NCBI RefSeq assembly: GCF_910596095.1 | Contig: NC_056545.1 | Location: 21,413,067-21,477,066, forward strand | Reading direction: 5' to 3' | Origin: Thunnus maccoyii | Lineage: Eukaryota > Chordata > Actinopteri > Scombriformes > Scombridae | Length of the DNA: 64,000 nt | Made by a program: the position numbers and the translations under genes | Shown: one piece after another, positions 1,170-35,365 of the stretch | Numbering within the stretch: position 1 is the stretch's first letter | Layout of the letters: the number at the start of each line of letters is the position of its first letter | The notes under the pieces: model-generated | The model's database searches: none | The model's input: only the letters and a program-made list of their open reading frames with translations | Told to the model about the DNA's origin: nothing

Positions 1170-4100
1170 GGCTGCACCTTTTCCTAGCACACACAAGACC
1201 AGTAAATACATCAGTGAAAGTGCTGAAATATGTTTTGCATTCACCAGTTGATTTTACATTGTAACATTGTGTTGTTACAATAGTTATGAGTAAACTGGTC
1301 TGTTCCTCTAATTTCCTTCTCTTTCTATTTTAAAAGGGCCATGAATCATCTAGCCCATTTGTTCTGATTAATGGATAAAATTACTTGATTTTTACGGGAG
1401 CCTGTCCAATCATTATGACCTATGGGACTCTTTACTCAAAGATCCGATGATAACAGAGTCCCTGGGATGCAATTTGATTTAATCTGCCATTATATTCTAC
1501 CCTTAATGTTGCTTTTGCTTTATCTTTCTTTCACATTTAACATCCTGTTCCCATAATGGTTGCACCAGCACAATGTTATAATTCAGCTGTTTTCTATCTG
1601 ATTGTTAAAGTACATTTGATTACTCTGTGTGCAAAATGCCGTAAGCCTAATGACAAAGCCTGATGGATTAAATTCCAGATGAGAAAAATATTCAAAGTGG
1701 AAAGGGAATAATGTTGTAATATGCTGCACCCTGCTGTTCAAAAGACAAAAGTTACTGAAGAGGGCATTTTATTTCAGATGCGTCAGACAAGGGATTTGGA
1801 GAGCTGCAAGCCCAGGAATGAGAACATTAAGCTCAGACTGAGCAGCCCACAGTCTTTTCACTTCCTCAGCCTGGTTCCTTTCTTTGGGCCAACATATATA
1901 GAATATATATGTAATATAAAGTGGATCACTATATAACTGTTAAGTCTTTCTGGGTGCAGACGTACATTTCATGTCATAAGCTGCTCCGTCATGACCTGGT
2001 TCAGTGGTAAAGTGATACTATCGGCTGCGTATGTGCTTCCCTGTCTTAACATAATCCAATTAACACTGATTGTTGATACCAGAGATTTATGTATAGACGA
2101 CTGGCCTCCTTTTTTAATGAAGCTGCACTTTTGGACAATCTTTGAAATATGTTTAAACAGGTGGAATACGTAAACATAACTGATCTCATTGCCTGTAAAA
2201 TACAACTCTTATAATATCAAAAGAAAAATCTACAATGTGAGGAAATTTACTTAACTTATTAACTTTAACTTTAACTTAACTTCTTAACTAATTCTAAAAT
2301 ATAAAATATTAGTGTAGTGTTATATAGTGTTATATAAAGATTATGAACAAAAATCTGCAGATCTTTACTGACAGAACATTTAACCAATAAATAATATCAG
2401 CAATCTGTCGATAAATAGTTTTTCAGCTTATGTTTTATTTAAGAAAGACAAAATTTTACATCCAGATTGATACCATATATAATTAATATTGATATATAAG
2501 CACTTACCGAACTTTTTTGCTGTTGCAGTGAGTTAAATGAGGACTTGAAGGCAATAAAGTAAATCCAACTGGGTATCATCCAACATATATTTTCTTCTTT
2601 TCTTTGTTCCTTGTTCTTCCATCAACCAGGACAAATAGAAATCATCGTCCCATCAGGGTCTTGAACACACTTTCTTTAAAGTCACTGACTCTCCCCTCTT
2701 TCCCCTTGTTCGTGCAGCAGGTGTGGTGAAAAGGTTGGGGCTACAGGTCGAGGTTTAATCTGCACCTGAAATCCTACTTGGCAGTTCATTAGCTGGTGAA
2801 GATTACACCCTGATTATCGGACGGAGCAACTTGGCAGAAGCTATTAGTGTAACTAGCAGCGGGAGTGATTACTGATGAGGAATCATGTTCAGAATCACTG
2901 GGAACCATTCAATTGTTCAACTCTGAATTCATGATTGGTTTCAAGGAAAGCATGTTTCTCAAACATTTGACAACAAAAGTATGAACCTTCACTCTTAATT
3001 GATACAATTCTTTATTGACAACTATCCTACAATCCTTGTACAAGCTATTATATTTTGAACCATGAAGGCGAACATTAATGAAGGCTTATATACATAGTAA
3101 AGTAAAATCATCACCATTTTGACTTCATTCAATCTTTTGAGTGACAGTGCAGCTCAGAAGCAGGCTACAGATCGAATGTGGATTATCTGATGTAGGTGTC
3201 TAAAAGCACAAAACAGCAGCACAAGCATTTACATAATCTTTGATCCCATGAGCTTGATCGTATGAGAAAATATTGCTTGCATTCACTGAATGCTGCACGT
3301 GAACCTGGATCTTTACACATGCAGGAGCAGGGTAGAAAGATATTATGTAGGTACATTTCAGGTGAGCGGATTTAGCCTGTGTTTGAGGAAACGGAGAAGA
3401 GGGATTTAGATCATTCAGCTAAAGAGGACTAAAACTGTGCCAAACAGTGGAGAACCCGTTTCAGAGCAGTTTAGCCAATTAGTAATGAGATGGAAATTCA
3501 CAGATGTCAGTGAATGCCACTGCATTAAACTGTGGTTGTCTCTACAGTTTAACACGTTAAGACAGCTAGGAAGTCATACATGTTTTAATGTGTGCAGCTT
3601 TTAAAAAAAAAAAAAACTTGGGCATTTTTAAGATGTCTGGTCTAAATGTGAAAGAAAATACTACACTGTTATGACAGAGTGATCTAGCAAGAGGTTAATT
3701 ATTTAAGTTAAAACCAGACTGTGCAATATTTTGTGCAAAGGAAGACAAACTGATTGAATGAAGGTAAGATGTTACAAATAGGTGGCTCAATAGAGGAAAC
3801 TTAGGCCTGTTTAAGTCAATGTCCTGTACTGTGCTACATGCTGGGACTGTTCGAAAGACCCTGAGAAGAAATCCTATTTAAAGGGGTTAGGGGTGAAACA
3901 GATTCTACGTTCAAGTCTAATCCAGCTCAGTGACGGAGAACAATCCCACCCACCCAGACAAGGATTTAGGTTTTCAAAGACAGTGATATCTGATATGATC
4001 TGATCACTGTCCTGTCATCTACCAAGTCAAAGGTAAGAGCACAGAGGTGTCACTACACCTTTAATCATCTGGAAAAAAAAAAACATAATTCCTCAGTTCC

Positions 4101-6385: not shown

Positions 6386-6500
6386 TACAGTGTGTGTGGG
6401 AGGAGTAAATGGTGCTGAGCAGAAACCCCCTGATATGAAGGACGAGTCGCACTGGCATCGGGCCTGAACCCCACATCAGTCCCCGCGCCGGTCGCTCGCG
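1170..6500. other. Intergenic region between grk1 and slc25a35 (divergent)
   Basis: About 5.3 kb between the divergent grk1 (minus) and slc25a35 (plus) starts, so both promoters must lie here. The DNA is AT-rich with no open frame resembling a known protein. A GGATTA (1665-1670), an OTX/CRX-type photoreceptor core, lies 0.5 kb upstream of the grk1 start, but a six-base match is weak evidence. A (TG)n tract sits at 6355-6381. Sequence becomes GC- and CpG-richer from about 6420, suggesting a CpG promoter for slc25a35. Confidence 0.6.
6355..6381. repeat. (TG)n microsatellite near the slc25a35 start
   Basis: Thirteen or so uninterrupted GT/TG dinucleotides, about 120 bases upstream of the slc25a35 ATG. 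Purine-pyrimidine alternation of this kind can be length-variable and is often seen in fish promoters; no function is shown here. Confidence 0.95.
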
Positions 6501-9956
<3,456 letters not shown>

Positions 9957-23623: not shown

Positions 23624-25181
23624 ATGTGTACCGCAAAATGTTCCCGTTGCATTGCTGTTACTCTGTTCCCATTAGCAGCCATATCCATCATCTGTAGCAT
23701 TGTGCTGTTCTTTCCTGGTGGGGATATCAAGTATGCCAAAGAAGGACATATTACTGAGGAGGTGAAATACATGGGAGGACTCATTGGAGGGGGTATAATG
23801 GTGAGTTGTCTTTTTTATAGCCTCTGACTCTGGACTTTAAGCTGCTGCACATTCCTCTTTGAAATATAAAAATGAAAAAATATCTTCATCGAGGCAAAGT
23901 TTCAAACTTCTAATGATGAGTTTGGCGCAGTTTGAGCAGGAATTCCTCAAAACCAGAGTGAAGACTGACTCCTGCACAGTTTCTTTGCTGAATTGTTCCA
24001 ACTAAATTCATGAACTGTTGACCATGTGATATACACTGATGCTGCATCTTCCTCCCTGTCAACTCATGTGCACCATCACAGGTGTTGATATCAGCGCTTT
24101 ACATCCAATGCACTGGAGAAGAGGGATGCTGTGGAAATCGCGTCGGGGTGAGTCAGTCAGAACTACAAATTAGATGTTTCAAGTGCTCAGAAAAAGATAA
24201 AGGAAACAATTAAGCAAGCTATTAACAGGAATCCACATTAGATCAAGAAATAACAGTCAAATTCAACTAAATAAAGTGTTTAATGGAGGTCAGTCGAGCT
24301 GAGAATGACTCAGTAAAAAAAGAAAAATATGCTGCATGGTGCTGCAACATCATTGCATATCATTCAGGTCCTCTTTAGACTGAAAAGATAACACATAACC
24401 ATAGTACATTTCTCATTGTTTCTCAGAAGAACATTTATTTATAAGTTCAAACCCTGTGAAAAAGGCTTATTGGAACGGATTTTAAACTCACACATTTTGA
24501 AATAGAAAATCCAAACTGTCACTGTTTTTTAATATCTGGAGTTGGCACCAACACATATTATGTCTTGTTGATGTTGGGAAATAAAAACAGAATGCAGGTT
24601 AAAAGAAGAAGGTGAGAGGTGTCAGTGGACAGCCGAGAGTCAACAGCTCAACATAAATGTTAGTAATGTAGGTGGAGAGTGAAGAAAAAATAAGGGAAAA
24701 GAATACATTGTGAACATACTGTGTCTTACGCTGCATTAAAAATGTTTCCAACCTCTGATTGTCGTTTAACTTCTGCAGATGTTCTTTTCTATTATATTCG
24801 CTGGAGTGGCTGTGTTCGGTGCCCTGCTGAGTATGGCTTTGGCAGTGTTAGCTTTGCGTAACGGGCCCCTCTGCAAATATGAAGGGCAATGGACAACACC
24901 TTTTAACAACAGGTGGCACATGGAAGCAAATATCTCATGACATTTGTTAACATTATGAAGTCCTAGTCATTTATCGACCTCTTCTTTTACATAGCAACTT
25001 GGACTACCTGAATAATCCTGAGTTGTGGGAGAAATGCACCGAGCCTAAAAGCATTGTGCAGTTCAACACTGGATTGTTCTCCACTCTGATAGCCACAAAC
25101 TCCCTGCAGGCGTTCCTCTGCAACATTCAGATGATCAACGGCTTTTTTGGCTGCCTGTTTGGGACCTGCATCAAAAAATAG
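23624..25181 (+). CDS. Transmembrane 4 L6 family protein (tm4sf5-like), copy A, 4 coding exons
   Basis: Small tetraspan membrane protein of the L6/TM4SF1-4-5-18 family, which influences adhesion and signalling at the plasma membrane. Exons 23624-23800, 24082-24147, 24779-24912 and 24995-25181 join in phase to 187 residues, close to the roughly 200 of the family. It starts MCTAKCSRCI (family MCTGKCARC). Four membrane segments lie at about 10-29, 46-66, 82-106 and 150-172, with the CCGNR motif after TM2 and the large extracellular loop between TM3 and TM4 containing LWEKCTEPK. An N-N-S glycosylation sequon spans the exon 3/4 junction. The last codon before the donor GTAAAA is TAG, so translation ends here, whereas copy B has GGG at that place and reads on. 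Copy A's equivalent of the final exon (after TTACAG, about 25301) is therefore untranslated. Which human member is orthologous is unsure; synteny favours TM4SF5. Confidence 0.88.
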
Positions 25182-27855
25182 GTAAAACTAAGAGGTCACA
25201 ATGTCAGTAGTCCATGTTGTTAGGACATCTTATTTCTCACAGAAGATGTGTAATTTGAGAGAATTTTAACTTAAGTTTTCTTTTTTTTTTTACTTACAGT
25301 CACCATGAGGCTCATCCTTACTATGGATACTCAGTACTGCATCTGATGAGTCAACTGGTGCTCCCTGATAGTGGTCCTGGCTGAATCTGCTTAAAACATT
25401 TCCTTTTAAATTGTTGTTACAGGCTTTTAAATCTTTATGTTCTTCATGATGCTTCACGCTGTTGCAAATGTATTAGCGTATGTTGTGAAACTGGCACAGT
25501 ATTAGAACTAACGCATGCAAATTATTATTTGGACAGTTTTAAGCAAATTGGTTTTAAGTATAAGCTGCTGATCCACTGCTTTGTGTTGTATTTCATAATA
25601 TGTAGCATTTCACTATAGTATTAACTTTTTGGCTTACTGTGCCTCACAATCAAAGTACTTAAACCTTATCCATAGTGCAACATGGACCAAGGCAGAGAAC
25701 AGCAGCAAATCCAAGTCAAGCCACATCATACATCTAACATGGTTTTTATTGTTGTTTAGTTTGGCATATACATTATTTCAACAAGTATTAACATTACTGT
25801 TTTTTTTCTCATGAGCAAAGGAGGAAATAACTGATTAAATGTGCTGTTTTGGTTTAACACAAGTATACACTTTCAGTTCAATTCAATTTATACGGCGCTA
25901 AATCACAACAAAAGTTATCTCAGGGCATTTTTCACATAGAGCAGGTCTAGACCATACTCTTGAATTTACAGAGACCCGACAATTCCCCCATGAGCAAGCA
26001 CTTGGTGACAGTGGCAAGGAAAAATTCCTCTTTGACGGGAAGAGACCTCAAGCAGAACCAGACTTTAGGTGGGCAGCCATCCGCTTTGACCAGTTGGGTT
26101 GAGAGAGAACAAAAGAGGGAGGGGGAGAGAGGAGAGAGAGAGACACTGAGAAGCATAATATCAACAATAACAATAATAGAGATATGACTAGCAATAACGT
26201 CCTGTCAGCATGTCCTGTCCTTTGTCCATACACTGTATACTGTATGGACATAGGATGTTTGGGGGGTGAAAGGAAATATTTTCAGATTTTGACTTTTGTT
26301 GGTTTTTGCAATTACAACTTCAGACTGCTTTGGGAGAGAGAAGGCCAAAACTGTTAGCTTTGATTGGACCAAAGTCTATGTAAAATGAGGCAGGATTTAG
26401 GTGAGGAGAGAGGATAAAGGAAATCGTCCCAAAGGAAAATTCACAAACTGTGTTCTATATGAGATCATGTACTGCTTCTGAGTTTTCATTTGTGTTTCCT
26501 CTTCTATGTACTATCCTTATCACAGTATGTTTTCAATAAAGGAGAACCTGAGATGCACAAGGAATTTAAAAAAAGGGCATGACCTTGTAAGTGATGATGG
26601 TTGTGTGTTGCATTAAATAAATAATGAAAACACAATCCTTTTGCGTGGAAACTCCAGTTGAGTAACCAGCCTCACCCGAGTGTTGCTTGGAGACAACAAA
26701 TGTTATGGACAGCATAATACAATAAATAGCAAACAGGGTCATATACATTCATGTATCTGTGGTAACATGGCCAAAGATCACCCTGCCCATCAATCTAGAC
26801 ACACCCTGGGATTGACATGTCATGACTAAAGAGCCAATCTAAGTCCTCCTAACAAATATAACATATCCACACACACAATGTAATATAGACACTCATACTT
26901 ACATACACACATACACAAATGTAGTTGCGTTAAATCAGAACATATACAGATGTACGTGAATGGCCATAACAAGTAAACAAACAGAGAAAATGAATAAATA
27001 GATAAATAATTATATATATATAGTCATAATGGTTGTAATAATAATAAAATATGTAATAAGATAATATACAATTAGATGAATAAGTCGTCATCAGTGTACT
27101 TCTCCTTTTTTATCTTAAACAAAATTGTCTTAATTTAACCTTCAGTTCACTGATATGATGTAGAGACAGTCACCAACTAAACCAGAAAACTAAAAAATGT
27201 AGGCGGTCCTCAGTGTTTCACCATCAACAGTGTGGTCATATATCAATGTTTTGCTGTAGATGTCAATGACACATTGTTCTTGCTCCACTTAACATGCAGC
27301 CACAGGTCCAAAGTCCAACCGCGTTGTGACTCTGGCGGCACAATGTCAACACATCACCAGGATACTGGCTACAATAGGTGGAATTGAAACATGTTTCTCA
27401 AAGTAAATATCTGTCTCCTCAATAGTCCCCACCAACACACTTAATATTAGTATATTAATGCCACATACAAGAAACTCAGATTTACAAAAAATGAGCATTT
27501 TGGAGGCCTGAACACTAAACTAAACTTGATATTGATGTGACCATCAACACAGCTGACTCAGACAACAAGAATGCATAGAGGAAATGCAAAAAATATGCAT
27601 CTGCACATGATCTAACTCAACAAAACGAGGGTTATCTCTCAAAAGGCAAACAGAATGAGTCACATTTGCATCAGTAGCCTATCCCAGACTCTGTTTGTCC
27701 ATGTTATCGGCTTTTAGGTACACCTCCCACACCCCCACATCACTCATAGTATTCAGTGCTAGTTAAAATACATTTCCTTCTTTGGGTCAGTTTCGAGTAG
27801 GAAACGTACTGAACGAGAGGTTTTACAGCGGGGAGTTTGTTTTCACCCAGACAAC
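25182..27855. other. Spacer between tm4sf copies A and B
   Basis: Up to about 25660 this is the 3' part of the duplicated unit: CATGATGCTTCACGCTG, CTTTTGGCTTACTGTGCCTC and similar phrases recur after copy B. Next come a dispersed repeat (25873-26190) and about 1.6 kb of AT-rich sequence with no recognisable gene. The last 80 bases (GAGAGGTTTTACAGC and following) match the region before copy A and are the 5' part of the second unit. Confidence 0.6.
25873..26190. repeat. Common teleost interspersed repeat ending in purine-rich tracts
   Basis: Contains TTCAATTCAATTTATACGGC, CTAAATCACAACAAAAGTTA, CACATAGAGCAGGTCTAGAC, CCCATGAGCAAGCACTTGG and TGACCAGTTGGGTTGAGAGA followed by GAGA-rich sequence. 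I recognise the consensus as a very frequent fish repeat but will not assign a class from memory. Short reading frames inside it are not genes. Confidence 0.7.
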
Positions 27856-29676
27856 ATGTGTACTGGAAAATGTTCCCGTTGCATTGCTGTTACTCTGTAC
27901 CCATTAGTGGTCATATCCATCATCTGTAACATAGTGCTGTTCTTTCCTGGTGGGGAGATCAAGTATGCCAAAGATGGACATATTACTGAGGAGGTGAAAT
28001 ACATGGGAGGACTCATAGGAGGGGGTATAATGGTGAGTTTTCTTTTCTCTAGACTATGATTCTGGACTACAAGCTGCTGAAAATTTCTTTCTGAAATATT
28101 ACAGACAGCCTCAGAAAAATGTTAGTTACCTACCATATGTAGTTAAAAAATATACTGTATATACTGGATTTGTACCGTATATTGGATTTTAAATGGGGTG
28201 CAGTGGTCATGTCACCTGTTCTGAGTCCTAGTTTTGTGCTTGTGCGTCAAACTTTGACTAAAGACTGGCAACAAATCTCCCTTTCAACATATTCTGCATG
28301 GTTTGAGTTGAAAAAAATATTATTCATTTTTGTATTGAATGTAAACTACAGTCAACTCATCTGTCCCGCCACAGGTGTTGATCCCAGCACTTTACATCCA
28401 CATGACTGGACAGAAGGGCTGCTGTGGGAATCGCTGTGGGGTGAGTCAGTCAGTCTAGCTGTAGACGTTAGATGTTTCAGGACTGGATTAAAGTAAAATG
28501 ACAAAAAATGGCAAATCAGAACTTGAATTCCACAGAGACATGTTTTGTAACTCATAATAGCAAATAACACATTAAATTAAGACTTCAGAATTGTCTTTTG
28601 TGGCTGAATCATTCAACTTTTTACTACAAAGTAATATTTGAATAAAACTGAATTTATGAATTTCTACATGGTGCTTCATCACTAAACCATTGCACAGCAT
28701 TTAGGTCTTCTTCATACAAATAACACACACTTTAATTAATTATGAATTCATTAGGGTAACAGTACATCTCTCCATTTTAATCCAAAAAGACGTTACTGTT
28801 TTTGTATAGTGTATAGTTGTCGTTAGACAATAGAGACACTTGTAAACCCGCTTTACAAAAAGTTTCCAAACTTATTTCCAAAAAAATCTTTTATTTTATC
28901 AGTGTTGGGGGAAAAAACACAGATTGGCGAGTATATATGTGAGGAATGTGAGAGGTGCAACACATGTCTTATCCTTAGACGACTTGGACAAAAAATGTTA
29001 GGGCGAGGAGGGGGAAGGTAAGCGTGGGCCAGAATTCAGGAGTATTCAGTTGAGTTTTAAACTGCAACAAGAACATTTCTAACCATTTCCTTATCATTTC
29101 ACAACTGCAGATGTTCTTATCAATTGTATTCGCTGCAGTGGGTGTGGCTGGTGCCCTGTACAGCTTCATTGTGGCAGTGCTTGGTTTGCAGAATGGCCCT
29201 CTTTGCAAAGAAAGTATTATTTGGACGACACCTTTCAAGAACAGGTGACACACATGATTATCTTTCTGATGACACTTGCTCCGTTTCTTAAGTGTTGGTC
29301 ATTCATAAACCTCTTTTTTTTTTTCTTTCTTGCACAGTGACCCGAGTTACCTGACTGACAGTTCGGGGTGGGGACGATGCATAGAGCCTAAGAACATTGT
29401 GCACTTCAACATTGGATTGTTTGGTACTCTGCTGGCCACAAGCTGCCTGGAGCTGATTCTCTGCGGCATTCAGATGGTCAACGGCCTCTTTGGCTGCCTG
29501 TGTGGAGCCTGCATCAACAAAGGGGTGAGCTGAAGCTGGAGCTGTTGAACAGAAATAATAGAAAAGGAAGTCTCACTGTCAGTTTTTCTGTGTTGCTATG
29601 GTGTCTGAACCCAGACATTTCAAAGACTAGTTGTGAAATTTTACAAAAACTCTTTTTTTACTTGCAGCCACTGTGA
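27856..29676 (+). CDS. Transmembrane 4 L6 family protein (tm4sf5-like), copy B, 5 coding exons
   Basis: Tandem duplicate of the gene at 23624. Exons 27856-28032, 28375-28440, 29111-29244, 29338-29524 and 29668-29676 give 190 residues. The first four exons have exactly the same lengths as copy A, and the first exon is nearly identical (LFFPGGEIKYAKDGHITEEV). It starts MCTGKCSRCI, keeps the CCGNRCG motif and four membrane segments, and carries CIEPKNIVHFNIGLF in the large loop. Exon 4 ends AAA GGG before GTGAGC, and a tiny final exon adds Pro-Leu-stop. An AATAAA near 29889 may be the polyadenylation signal. It lacks copy A's glycosylation sequon at the exon 3/4 junction (NSD instead of NNS). 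Confidence 0.88.
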
Positions 29677-31714
29677 GTTCCTGATCTGGAGGCTTCTTGC
29701 CATTCTGCACTTAAAGCCACATCTGAGTCGGCTGGCGCTCCCTGCTGGACAACTGAGAGTAGTGCTGCATCTGCATAAAATATTCAAGTTTTTTTTGTCG
29801 CAACAGATTTTTATATTTTTTATGTGTATTTCATGATGCTTCATACTGTATAAACCATGCTGATCATTAAATTTCATGGTTAAATTTAAATAAATTGATC
29901 CCCCTGATACAGTCCTGTGTTGTGTTTCATTAAATCTAGCATCACATAATAGTATTTACCTTTTGGCTTATTGTGCTTCACAGTTAAAATAATAAAGTAG
30001 TCAAATAAAACATAGAACAAGATTTTTGTGACAGACACCTTTAATATGGATTGTATTACTACAATATATCACCCAATACTGCTGTATCAGGACTGATATC
30101 TATACAAATGTTTCAGTGTCATCTGACATTGTTGGCATTTTATGAATAAAATACCTATATTTCTAAATTAAAAGGAATATGACTGAGAATTCTGAAATGC
30201 CAACAACAATGCACAGGAACAAACTTGCACATGAAGCCCAGAGTGCAAATGGTACATTTGATGAGGCAGTAGATATTTTCTCATTGTCTTGTACATTACA
30301 ATAAAAGTTACACAACAACAACAACAAAAAAAAGGCAAAACGCAGTGATTTAAAAGGCAAATGCTAGGTCCCAAAGGAGTGGAGGCTTAGTAATAAGGAC
30401 AACAGGAGTGGAATAAAACATGTCAGAACAAAAACCATCAGTATTACACCCTCAGTTTGAGATAAACGCAAGAGCACTGATGTTTGATTCAGCCTGTGCT
30501 CATTATTTGGCCACTGAGATGAGAAAACTTAATCTCAAATTTAAAACCCTTGCTGAATATGTCTTTTGTTTCTTTCAAGGCAGATGAAATCCTTACTCTT
30601 CAAACAGCTTTGACTGAAGTGTTAAATAAGCGTGAGTAAATCTGTTAGCATATATATTTTACTACTATTGCATTTTTGTCACCTAAACACACCAAACTTA
30701 TTTTATAATTGAGAACACAAGTCACAACAACAACTTACAGTGACTTACATTAGTCTCTGCCACCTTTTCAAATAAAAACTCTATGCAGCAAGCTAAAGAT
30801 TTTGTGCTTTAAGATGATCCAATTGAGTGCTGCTCCTCCTCATGTACCTGCGTACAGAGCGAGTAAAGAAATATTTCGAAAGACTGTCAGAGAGAAACAT
30901 TTCTGTGCGGACACGCCTTTGTTGAGGTAGACATAAAATAATAAAATGGAGTGTTGATGATTCCTCTAAAAGAAGCTGGTTAAAGTCTATAATGCAGCAT
31001 TTCTGAAGTGTTAAAAACTAACAGCATTTAGATCTAAAAAATTAGTTAGTATCAGGATTTAAGATGTAAACACTATGTCAAAGGTGTTGTTCAAAAGAGA
31101 TGGAGTGTGGCAGTTTCAGTTAAGTAAAAAAAAAGAAAAAAAGAAAAGGAAATGGCAAAGACCAAATCCTACACATGATAAGATTCAAAGCTTCAGCTGG
31201 AGTTTTGATGAGGTTATATGGCTGCAATCTCAGAACCTATCAGCTATATGTCTGACAACGATTTAGCCTCTGGGGGCAACAGCCAATATTTTTCCAGTGT
31301 GGCAAAAGGATATCCAGATAACAGATATCCAGGCCAAGACTTCCTGTTCCGTGAGGCGGTTGTTGTTTACAGTCCGATTAGCAACGAGATGGTGCAGACG
31401 ACATTTTGGCTAAATTCTATAAACAGATACATGCATATAAATGCAGATGCATTTTAAAAAAGCTAAATCATAGTCAGACAATAGCTGGTGGGTTGCTCTT
31501 TTGGTCTCCATACAGACTCTTTACCTTCATGCAACCAAAGCCCGCTTAAATGTGATTGGTCAATACTACTCAGACTACAAACAGACACCAGAATGCTTCC
31601 GGTACCAAAATCTTGTTCTACAGATTCTGCATTCATATGCAGATATCAGTTTACAGAGATTAATATGGCTGTAATACTTCACTTCCAGTTCACCGCTCCT
31701 TCATATGACAAACT
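29677..31714. other. Intergenic region between tm4sf copy B and the hAT element
   Basis: The first 300 bases are the 3' end of the duplicated unit. The remainder is AT-rich with no recognisable gene. An open frame at 31218-31457 matches no family I know and has no splice or start context to support it. The last bases, GACAAACT (31707-31714), are the left target duplication of the next element. Confidence 0.55.
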
Positions 31715-32807
31715 TAGGGATGCACGATATTATCGGCACGTCATCGGTATCAGCCGATAAAAGCTCTAAAATGAAATATCGGCATCAGTGAATTCTGCAG
31801 ATTATGAGAAGCCGATATGTCACCTTCTCCAACGCTGCCTGACAGTGCTCCCCTCGATGGACTGTGTCACCCTGACGGTCCTGGTGCTTCCCACGCAGGC
31901 TTCACTTCACTCAGCTGCCCGTTTGTTATTCACATTAACGTGGGAAGAAGCAGCTGGTCTGACGGGCAGCTTGAGTGAAGTGGAGCCTGTGGAGGAAGTG
32001 CCGGGACCGTCGGGGTGAAACAGTCCGTCGAGGAGCTGTAATGTTTGGCCGCACAGATAGGAAACACTTCGGCTGACAGGATGTACCCATGGATGTATTA
32101 TAAGAGCTGGATACCGGACTAAAAATGGCACCCATTCAGTCCTATAGCTCAGCCGGTGCATACGCCAAAAAAAGTTTCTAGCTTCCAGGTTTGCTTGAGC
32201 GTGTACATTGTGATGACGTCATGGATTTTTAAATCACTTTTCTCGGCAGTTCGAGGTGTCCTGTCAACAGTTTTACAGACGTCTCTTTTACAATAGTGGT
32301 CTATGGGGAAAATGCTTTTTGGGCCATAAGGGGATTTTTTTGCTGCAATACCCCAAGTGGCCACTGGGAAAAATTGGCTGCAAGGCTGAGCAGAGGTGCC
32401 CTATCCAGCTCTTATTATACATCCATGATTGTACCACTCTGTTTTGAGCAAAAATGTCTTCTTTTTGGTTTATAATGGTGGTTGGCAACCAGCATATTAG
32501 GTGCATTACCACCACCAGAGTGTAGACCAGAGATTAAATCCTACACATTAATCCTGTCTGTCTAATAAACTCAAAGAAAACTCTATTGCTCGATCCACTT
32601 GGCAAGTTCATTAAAATTTTAACGCTGAGCTCCTGAACTCCAGTCTTCCTAAGTTCTTCCTTTATATATTGTCTTTCTATGCTTGCATACATAATAGTCT
32701 CCTCAGCCAGCTGGAAAAAAATATGTGCATATATCGGTATTGGCATCGGGAATCGGCCACAATGAGTTGGAAATATCGGCAAAAAAATCCAATATCGTGC
32801 ATCCCTA
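31715..32807. mobile_element. Non-autonomous hAT element abutting slc25a15
   Basis: Element of 1093 bases with perfect 17-base terminal inverted repeats (TAGGGATGCACGATATT at the left, its complement ending CATCCCTA at the right). It is flanked by GACAAACT (31707-31714) and GTCAAACT (32808-32815), an 8-base target duplication with one difference. Subterminal CGGCATCGG/CCGATA-like motifs repeat near both ends. It has no transposase. The final TA plus preceding C (32805-32807), read on minus, is the TAG stop codon of slc25a15. A second inverted-repeat element is nested inside at about 32089-32426. Confidence 0.9.
32089..32426. mobile_element. Inverted-repeat element nested in the hAT element
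   Basis: CATGGATGTATTATAAGAGC with following TGGATA at the left (about 32089 on) is mirrored by TATCCAGCTCTTATTATACA with following TCCATG at the right (about 32401-32426). TGTACC stands immediately outside the left arm and just beyond the right arm, a possible target duplication. No protein is encoded. Confidence 0.7.
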
Positions 32808-35365
32808 GTCAAACTGCTTCATCATGAGCTTCCGGCTGGCCTCGTAACCCAGAAACAGGGCTCCGTTAGCAGGAAAGGTGCGGACCATGGTGGGGGTGAG
32901 ACCAGAGTAAAGTGCCCTCACACCTGAACACAAGAAACAGAAAAGATGATGTTCTGACTGACATAGAAAGCTTTCAACAGCAAATCTGAACACCAAACAT
33001 CCCAGTTAAGATAATAGAAAGAAAGCAAACATCAAACCCCACTTCTGCCTACCTTCAGTGCGCGCAATGGTCATGAAGGTCTTGAAAAACCCTGCCTGTT
33101 TGCCTGTCATAGACATGACCTGGATCCGAGACTTGACACAGTCCATAGGATAGACCACCAGCCACAGGCACGCCCCTCCAAAACCACCACTGAACACGAT
33201 CGGAGCCACACCTGCAACACACACAGTAACACCTGTTAGTAACTCATTTCAAAATTACAATATGCATTATATTATAAGTAGTATAAAAACATAATAAATG
33301 GTTTATAACACACTATAATGTAGTTATAAGCAGATATGAGGATAATTTAAGTGCTTATTAATGCACAGCGTTGTAAACAATAACAACTTATCCTATGAAG
33401 ACATATTCTACATTATTACAACTGTGTTTTACTATATTGTCATGAATGTGAAATAATATTTTCTGTGGTAGTGAAGGCAGAACGTTTTGCCGGTACCTAT
33501 GTCGTCTTTGTCACATTTCATGTAGTCTGCGAAGGTGGTGCGGCAGAGCTCATAGGCACCGAAGAAGCAGAAGTAACCAGGGACCTCTCTGGCTATGGTG
33601 GTGGTCAGACCCTGGAAGAAGCCCTGTGGCCCCTCGTTCCTCATGATCGATTTCACCACCGACCACACTGTGCTTCAGACAGAGCAGAGAGAGGTACGGC
33701 TGTGTCAGTGCACACACACACACGCATGCACACACTAAAATAGTACGTGCAGACAAATTTGTCAAAGAAAAACACTTCTGCATTCTAAATTGTTTTTGTT
33801 AAATGCACTTACCAACTTGAATGAAACACTTACTCATAACAATATTAGCATGAAATAATAAATAAATAAATAATAAATTAATGTATTAATAATTGTGTTG
33901 TAGGGTATGTGAACGGTATGTTCTGGAGATAAACAGAGTAGATATGAGATGTCCAACTCACTCAATCTAAAAATGTCTGAAATCACCACAGATTACACAG
34001 AAAAAACTAAAAAATAATTGGGATTGGATTTGTTTTCCAGTTGTAAAAAATCCTGATTTGGTGAGTGCATCATTTCTGAATCTGTTGACACTTCTTTCTC
34101 TGTTTTTCATAAGCACATACCAATGTAAAAAAAACATTCAGGTAATTATTTAGATAAATATATGTGGGCAAACGACTATATAAGTCTACAGCATCAAACA
34201 AAACTGGACTTTTAGTTCTTTGAATGTCAATCTTTTAAGTTTTAGTTGTACAGTATTCACTATATCTTTTGATTAAAGTCTGTTCTAAATATATTTGAAT
34301 TTGGATGATGGTAACATCTGTATCAGCATGTTGTTATTCTATATATAAAGCAGGTAATTTTTCAGAACGACTTCTACTAATAATACACTAGATATAAGCC
34401 AAAATTGAATCATAAACTTTGTGTAATGTAAAAGTAAATGACCAATATAATATTAAAGAACTATTTAAACTACTTACTTCTGGCTCTTGGCAATCTTGCC
34501 TGATGCCTCCATTTCATACATGGCTTGCAGTCGACACTTGACAAGCTCAGTGGGGCAGAGTACCAGCGAGGAGAAGATGGACGCTACAGAGCCGGCGCAG
34601 GCTTTCTGCATGTCACTAACAGTGAGGAAAGAATAAACAGAAGACACTTAAGAGATCTTACATGTACCCTCAGGGTAAACAAGAAAGACAGCCTGGGTGA
34701 GATCTCCCTCCCTACCTCAGCGCAGCTTCACTGTGCAGTCCAGCCGTGAAGCGGACGACCTGCTGGCAGAAGCCGTAGCTCATGAAGAGCACAGAGTTCT
34801 CTGCAATGTTGGCCATCAGTGCTGGCGTGGTGCCTTGGTAGAGACCGCGCAGACCCACTTGTTTGTAGGTGGACACGACGCAGTGGATGAAACCCCGGTA
34901 CATATTGGGAAAGGTCTGCATCTTGACCTTTGCTGTGTCCAGAGGCTGCCCGCTGAAGACACATGCAGCTCCCCCTTGGAGGAAGACAGTGAAAAAACTG
35001 TCAGCAACAGAAGTGATCCGTACACAGACATGGTAGAAGAAACACAGACAAGAAAAATCAAAGATTGCACACAGCACATGCACTGCAAAGACAGATAAGA
35101 ATCAGATAGGGCTTCACAGAGGGTTGCACTCCACTGAGCAGTCAATGGAAACACAGAGAGAAATGAGCCGGAAAAAGACAGGAGTCATCAAAATGCTCGG
35201 CTACGGCAGACACAGCTAGTTAGTCGTTTGATCAAGGAGTGGAAAGCAGGAGTGAGCTGATTTCGTGGATGTGAAGTATTGTGCATGCTGTATAATGGTG
35301 CTGTGGTTACCAACGGCTCCTGCAGAGAGGTCAATGATGGCCTGGACCACTGGGTGTGGGGCCAT
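32805..35365 (-). CDS. slc25a15: Mitochondrial ornithine carrier, 6 coding exons
   Basis: Inner-membrane carrier exchanging cytosolic ornithine for mitochondrial citrulline in the urea cycle and arginine metabolism. Exons in coding order: 35311-35365, 34716-34974, 34478-34615, 33497-33672, 33053-33211 and 32805-32923. All phases fit, giving 301 residues, the same as I recall for human ORNT1. The three carrier motifs are PLDTAK (29-34), PTELVK (126-131) and PMDCVK (231-236). Family phrases include [45 protein letters not shown] and [19 protein letters not shown]. The start MAPHPVVQA fits the human MKSNPAIQA. An acceptor at about 35412 (TTTACTAG) suggests a separate upstream non-coding exon. 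The TAG stop belongs to the terminal repeat of the hAT element at 31715-32807. Teleost duplicates (a/b) cannot be separated here. Confidence 0.95.

Follow-up and report, generated by a model that had tools for sequence, protein, structure and literature searches.

The stop codon of slc25a15 in Thunnus maccoyii is probably the first triplet of a hAT-type transposon

Analysis of a 64,000-nucleotide stretch of Thunnus maccoyii DNA (the window) indicated that the gene taken here to be slc25a15 now ends at a stop codon supplied by the first triplet of a hAT-type element, for which insertion of the transposon is the best explanation, with a probability of about 0.88. On the minus strand the end of the gene reads ...CTC ATG ATG AAG CAG TTT GAC TAG GGA TGC ACG ATA TTG..., where the TAG at 32805..32807 comprises the first three bases of the element, as established from the junction sequence, the inverted repeat and the splicing of the gene. 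Ends of this transposon family begin with T in 57 of the 58 cases read (29 copies), the remaining end beginning with C, and the TAG is consequently assigned to the transposon and not to the host. It is a clean case, in which the element gives slc25a15 its stop and adds no residue.

The gene and its junction with the element

Splicing of six minus-strand exons in a script (35365-35311, 34974-34716, 34615-34478, 33672-33497, 33211-33053 and the last coding exon at 32805..32923, TAG included) produced 906 bases that are in frame and encode 301 residues followed by TAG. The intron borders are canonical, with AG before exons 2–6 and GT after exons 1–5. Exons 1–5 (33053..35365 as a block) are defined by the splicing together with the Pfam family Mito_carr, which matches the protein in three stretches (E = 1.4e-65), so that both the three carrier repeats and the intact frame expected of an slc25a15 orthologue are present. 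The third repeat, in its best stretch, stops at residue 299 of 301, and matches to solved carrier structures, obtained with a query of 302 residues (one extra), likewise stop at or before residue 299. The carrier domain is thus intact, and the tail of the protein lies outside the conserved domain. The gene name follows the call made in the sequence-only reading and a presumed similarity to the human protein; the product is a putative ornithine carrier, for which ornithine/citrulline transport is predicted.

Outside the exons of slc25a15 itself, the best carrier matches in the genome share at most 39% identity with the protein, which leaves the modified gene as the only clear copy. A search of the genome for a second slc25a15, or a retrocopy with an empty site, returned only these weaker carriers. 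The gene is presumably essential as well as single-copy. A further mitochondrial carrier exon lies in the window at 6468-6917 on the plus strand (Mito_carr, E = 2.4e-20; one stretch scanned).

Several claims of the sequence-only reading are borne out at this junction: that TAG GGA TGC after CAG TTT GAC is the start of a hAT terminal repeat, in agreement with the minus-strand sequence and the 17-bp repeats; that 17-base inverted repeats, which proved to be perfect, bound 31715-32807; and that the gene is otherwise intact at 301 residues. Past the TAG, the next 33 codons contain no in-frame stop; readthrough was considered, and nothing was found in its support. Insertion of the window's element in phase 0 adds no residue in a scripted translation, whichever end is met, as TAG stands at both ends of this copy, and the other two phases would extend the host protein by 15 to 91 residues, the hybrid codon counted.

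A composite element and its family

The element (31715..32807) is a composite, non-autonomous hAT-type element of 1,093 bp, delimited by its repeats, its target duplication and its copies elsewhere in the genome. Its perfect terminal inverted repeats of 17 bp occupy 32791..32807 on the gene side (minus strand) and 31715..31731 on the far side (plus strand). Four matches to the end motif were found within the window at up to three mismatches, and the only exact ones are the two ends of the element. hAT ends as a rule start with C/TAG, and the T-first ends of this family are of that type. Nested within the element is a second MITE with 26-bp inverted ends (32088..32427), recognized by repeat search and by its genome copies; many copies of the hAT element run from arm to arm where the window copy carries this insert. 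The nested MITE occurs in at least 39 other places (40 scored of 1,595 first-look candidates), most of the scored copies being 88–93% identical to its second half (positions 159–340). Moreover, the left junction of the composite (cagagtggtac) was also found at three other loci (L002, L003 and L047) and the right junction (gacaggatgt) at two (L003 and L005). Because the same junctions recur at other loci, the data suggest that copying of a pre-existing composite, and not assembly inside slc25a15, produced the window's element. The composite nature of the element and the recurrence of its junctions extend the sequence-only reading.

The genome searched comprises 782 Mb in 54 contigs, with the window on contig 13. 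When the element was used as a DNA query, 40 of 2,898 first-look candidates were scored and yielded 175 matching pieces, and the exact 17-bp end was counted 392 times in the genome (200 forward and 192 reverse), as compared with 0 for a control read backward. A sample of 40 fetched copies, including the window's own, was used to characterize the family, the best-scoring pair being taken where a copy offered several possible end pairs. Both ends were present, with flanking octamers that agree in at least 6 of 8 bases, in 29 of the 40 copies (17 at 8/8, 9 at 7/8 and 3 at 6/8); the other 11 were dropped, 10 because they had no recognized end pair and one because its octamers matched at 1/8. Control octamer pairs taken further out reached at least six matches in 6 of 435 cases and at least seven in 1 of 435. 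The 8-bp target-site duplication of the hAT superfamily is therefore found both across the family and in the window, where 7 of 8 positions match.

In the 17 perfect duplications, read in both orientations, T at position 2 (equivalently A at position 7) was found in 26 of 34 octamers, with A at position 2 in six and T at position 4 in 14 of 34. Members of the Ac family follow the target rule nTnnnnAn, and the octamers of this family show that preference rather than the Buster-type nnnTAnnn. The element that gives the stop can therefore be placed in a hAT-type family whose target preference resembles that of Ac. Dimer_Tnp_hAT gave 150 scored matches in the genome, and a search of 1.5 kb on each side of 30 of these loci for the same 17-bp end, at up to three mismatches, revealed no convincing transposase locus, with a single three-mismatch site (L092).

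PMC3517528 describes Mar of Drosophila willistoni as a non-autonomous hAT element (a MITE) of the Buster type, with target duplications of the form nnnTAnnn and ends beginning CAG, and gives 5–27 bp as the range of inverted ends in the hAT superfamily. Mar and the slc25a15 element are alike in having 8-bp duplications, short inverted ends and a length of less than 4 kb with no room for a transposase. They differ in that the present family favors T at position 2, equivalently A at position 7 on the other strand (26/34), does not have positions 4–5 fixed as TA and has ends that begin with TAG. The same source notes that one predicted coding sequence in Drosophila contains a short stretch of Mar.

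The former end of the protein and the origin of the stop

The element is flanked by the octamers GTCAAACT on the gene side (32808..32815), which spans the last bases of the Gln codon and then Phe and Asp, and GACAAACT on the far side (31707..31714). Comparison of the two shows 7 of 8 positions to be identical, and the chance of seven or more matches is ∼5e-4 at the local base composition. The far-side octamer is followed by ATATGA and not by TAG. When the flanks were joined in a script, the empty site read ...MMKQFDI-stop with the gene-side octamer and ...MMKQFVI-stop with the far-side octamer, both ending at a TGA (31701..31703, minus strand) that is the putative former native stop. If it has drifted like the element, the far-side ATATGA has a chance of roughly 64–71% of being unchanged.

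The gene-side octamer GTCAAACT is more likely to be the ancestral form, because position 2 is most often T in the family (26/34, against A in six) and because coding constraint on the gene side favors the same copy; its position 2 fits the family preference, and its position 7 is C and not the preferred A. The old end of slc25a15, as reconstructed from one genome, was therefore probably Phe-Asp-Ile-stop rather than Phe-Val-Ile-stop, and the insertion probably removed about one residue from the end of the protein. In human SLC25A15, two residues follow the equivalent acid residue. An element-free animal slc25a15 orthologue, sought as contaminant animal DNA in viral contigs and in one-per-species prokaryote genomes, was not found there. 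With respect to the sequence-only reading, the hAT-type insertion in the last codons, the TAG as current stop and the intact remainder of the coding sequence all hold. Its 8-base target duplication is present and spans the Phe-Asp codons, with one mismatch between its copies, and its far-side continuation through Val-Ile to a TGA reads as described, although Phe-Asp-Ile-stop is the likelier ancestral end.

Taken together, these observations are consistent with a mechanism in which a non-autonomous hAT element would have entered the last codons of slc25a15 by cut-and-paste transposition, duplicating AGTTTGAC (in the sense of the gene). Its terminal inverted repeat starts with TAG, and the phase of the insertion would have set this triplet in frame, so that translation would stop exactly at the host-transposon junction without a transposon-coded residue. 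The displaced end of slc25a15 would have been probably one further residue and TGA (Ile-stop), and the element would have become about 1.1 kb of the 3' UTR. The change was presumably harmless.

The stop could instead be the native one, the element having inserted behind an original Phe-Asp-TAG and the far side having later lost those bases, so that the TAG at the start of the element would be a coincidence. The two copies of the duplication do already differ by one base, but the far-side copy is followed by ATATGA, members of this transposon family usually start with TAG, and a deletion would be needed at exactly that place; a native TAG is accordingly considered very unlikely. A similarly improbable explanation is that the functional transcript skips the TAG end altogether, because another last exon is used or the transcript is processed early, which would give a different C terminus, with the TAG form being minor or present in annotation only. 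It would accord with the position of the first AATAAA or ATTAAA on the minus strand, which lies 2.8 kb downstream of the stop. Against it, the third carrier repeat has its conserved end, to residue 299, in this last exon, and the genome search gave no other high-identity last exon resembling that of slc25a15.

The transcript likely carries the element inside a 3' UTR of ∼2.8 kb. The first hexamer past the stop, in a search for AATAAA and ATTAAA, is an ATTAAA at 30040..30045 (minus strand), a candidate poly(A) signal; no AATAAA is found on the minus strand for 3.9 kb past the stop (to 28895). Weaker hexamers within the element (TATAAA at 32666 and 32474, and AATATA at 32670) could end the transcript earlier. 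The presumed 3' UTR also includes another dispersed repeat (31224..31665), ∼440 bp long and with inverted ends, which is more diverged and shows ∼70–80% identity to other copies, and the TGA of the empty site falls between this repeat and the hAT element. Junction-dependent decay ordinarily does not apply to a stop in the last exon, and, as there is no splice junction downstream of the TAG, nonsense-mediated decay would not be expected.

Compared with the majority of the 39 other copies, the window copy differs at 53 of 749 sites (K2P 0.075), or at 38 of 677 outside CpG, with 4.0 to 10.6% divergence between it and the individual copies. The nested MITE differs at 17 of 337 sites from the majority of nine of its loci. 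These figures are upper bounds on the change since the insertion into slc25a15, since part of the divergence may predate it. Divergence of this extent suggests an insertion that is probably old and no longer polymorphic.

Comparable insertions and neighboring sequence

For sixty TAG ends among the 40 fetched loci, the sequence upstream was read in the phase of the TAG. Four, found at L008, L037, L043 and L051, had open runs longer than the 66 codons of slc25a15 (100, 98, 81 and 69 codons, in no given order of locus), the longest of which, at L051, extended to the limit of the fetched DNA, and none of the four gave a Pfam match above the curated cut-off. By eye, the L051 run looks transposon-coded. 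At L008 a family copy (2298-3385) sits, again by eye, just after the transmembrane exon of a receptor with Ig-type domains. A GT donor precedes the element, which is therefore probably intronic there. The slc25a15 end is the only one of the 60 shown to end a recognized host exon.

Transposon insertions in coding sequences are known, and the slc25a15 case is a further example of them. In PMC6824096, the miniature element Mariam lies in exon 6 of a wheat gene, with a predicted stop at position 41 of the 307-base insert. Mariam resembles the slc25a15 element in that a miniature element, flanked by a target duplication, lies within a coding exon and is predicted to shorten the protein through a stop of its own and to alter the C terminus. 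Mariam lacks terminal inverted repeats and damages a domain, whereas the slc25a15 element provides its stop in the first triplet, adds no residue and spares the domain. In Brassica rapa, according to PMC3991616, coding sequences contain 89 of the 5,761 members counted across 20 MITE families; passages of PMC2008291 describe no comparable case. Among the titles and abstract openings listed from the open-licence literature, none reports this insertion or an slc25a15 with a transposon stop.

The slc25a15 end neatly illustrates a host stop codon that a DNA transposon appears to have replaced, with little change to the protein itself. More generally, whichever way round they insert, hAT families that begin with TAG would present a stop as their first triplet, so that phase 0 insertion ends a host protein cleanly, and such families might form a recurrent, unusually gentle source of new protein ends and 3' UTRs; this generalization is speculative and, at present, rather unlikely. 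The slc25a15 case gives a rule that can be tested across the genome, by which tolerated coding insertions should be enriched in TAG-ended hAT elements in phase 0.

An L6-type tetraspan membrane gene (24770-29533, plus strand) is convergent with slc25a15 and ends near 29.5 kb, Pfam confirming two of its exon pieces between 27.8 and 29.5 kb. Similar L6-type exons near 24.8–25.2 kb, seen by eye, suggest a tandem pair. Across the window, the two strands together contain 154 AATAAA hexamers, as compared with 85 expected from shuffles (largest shuffle, 117).
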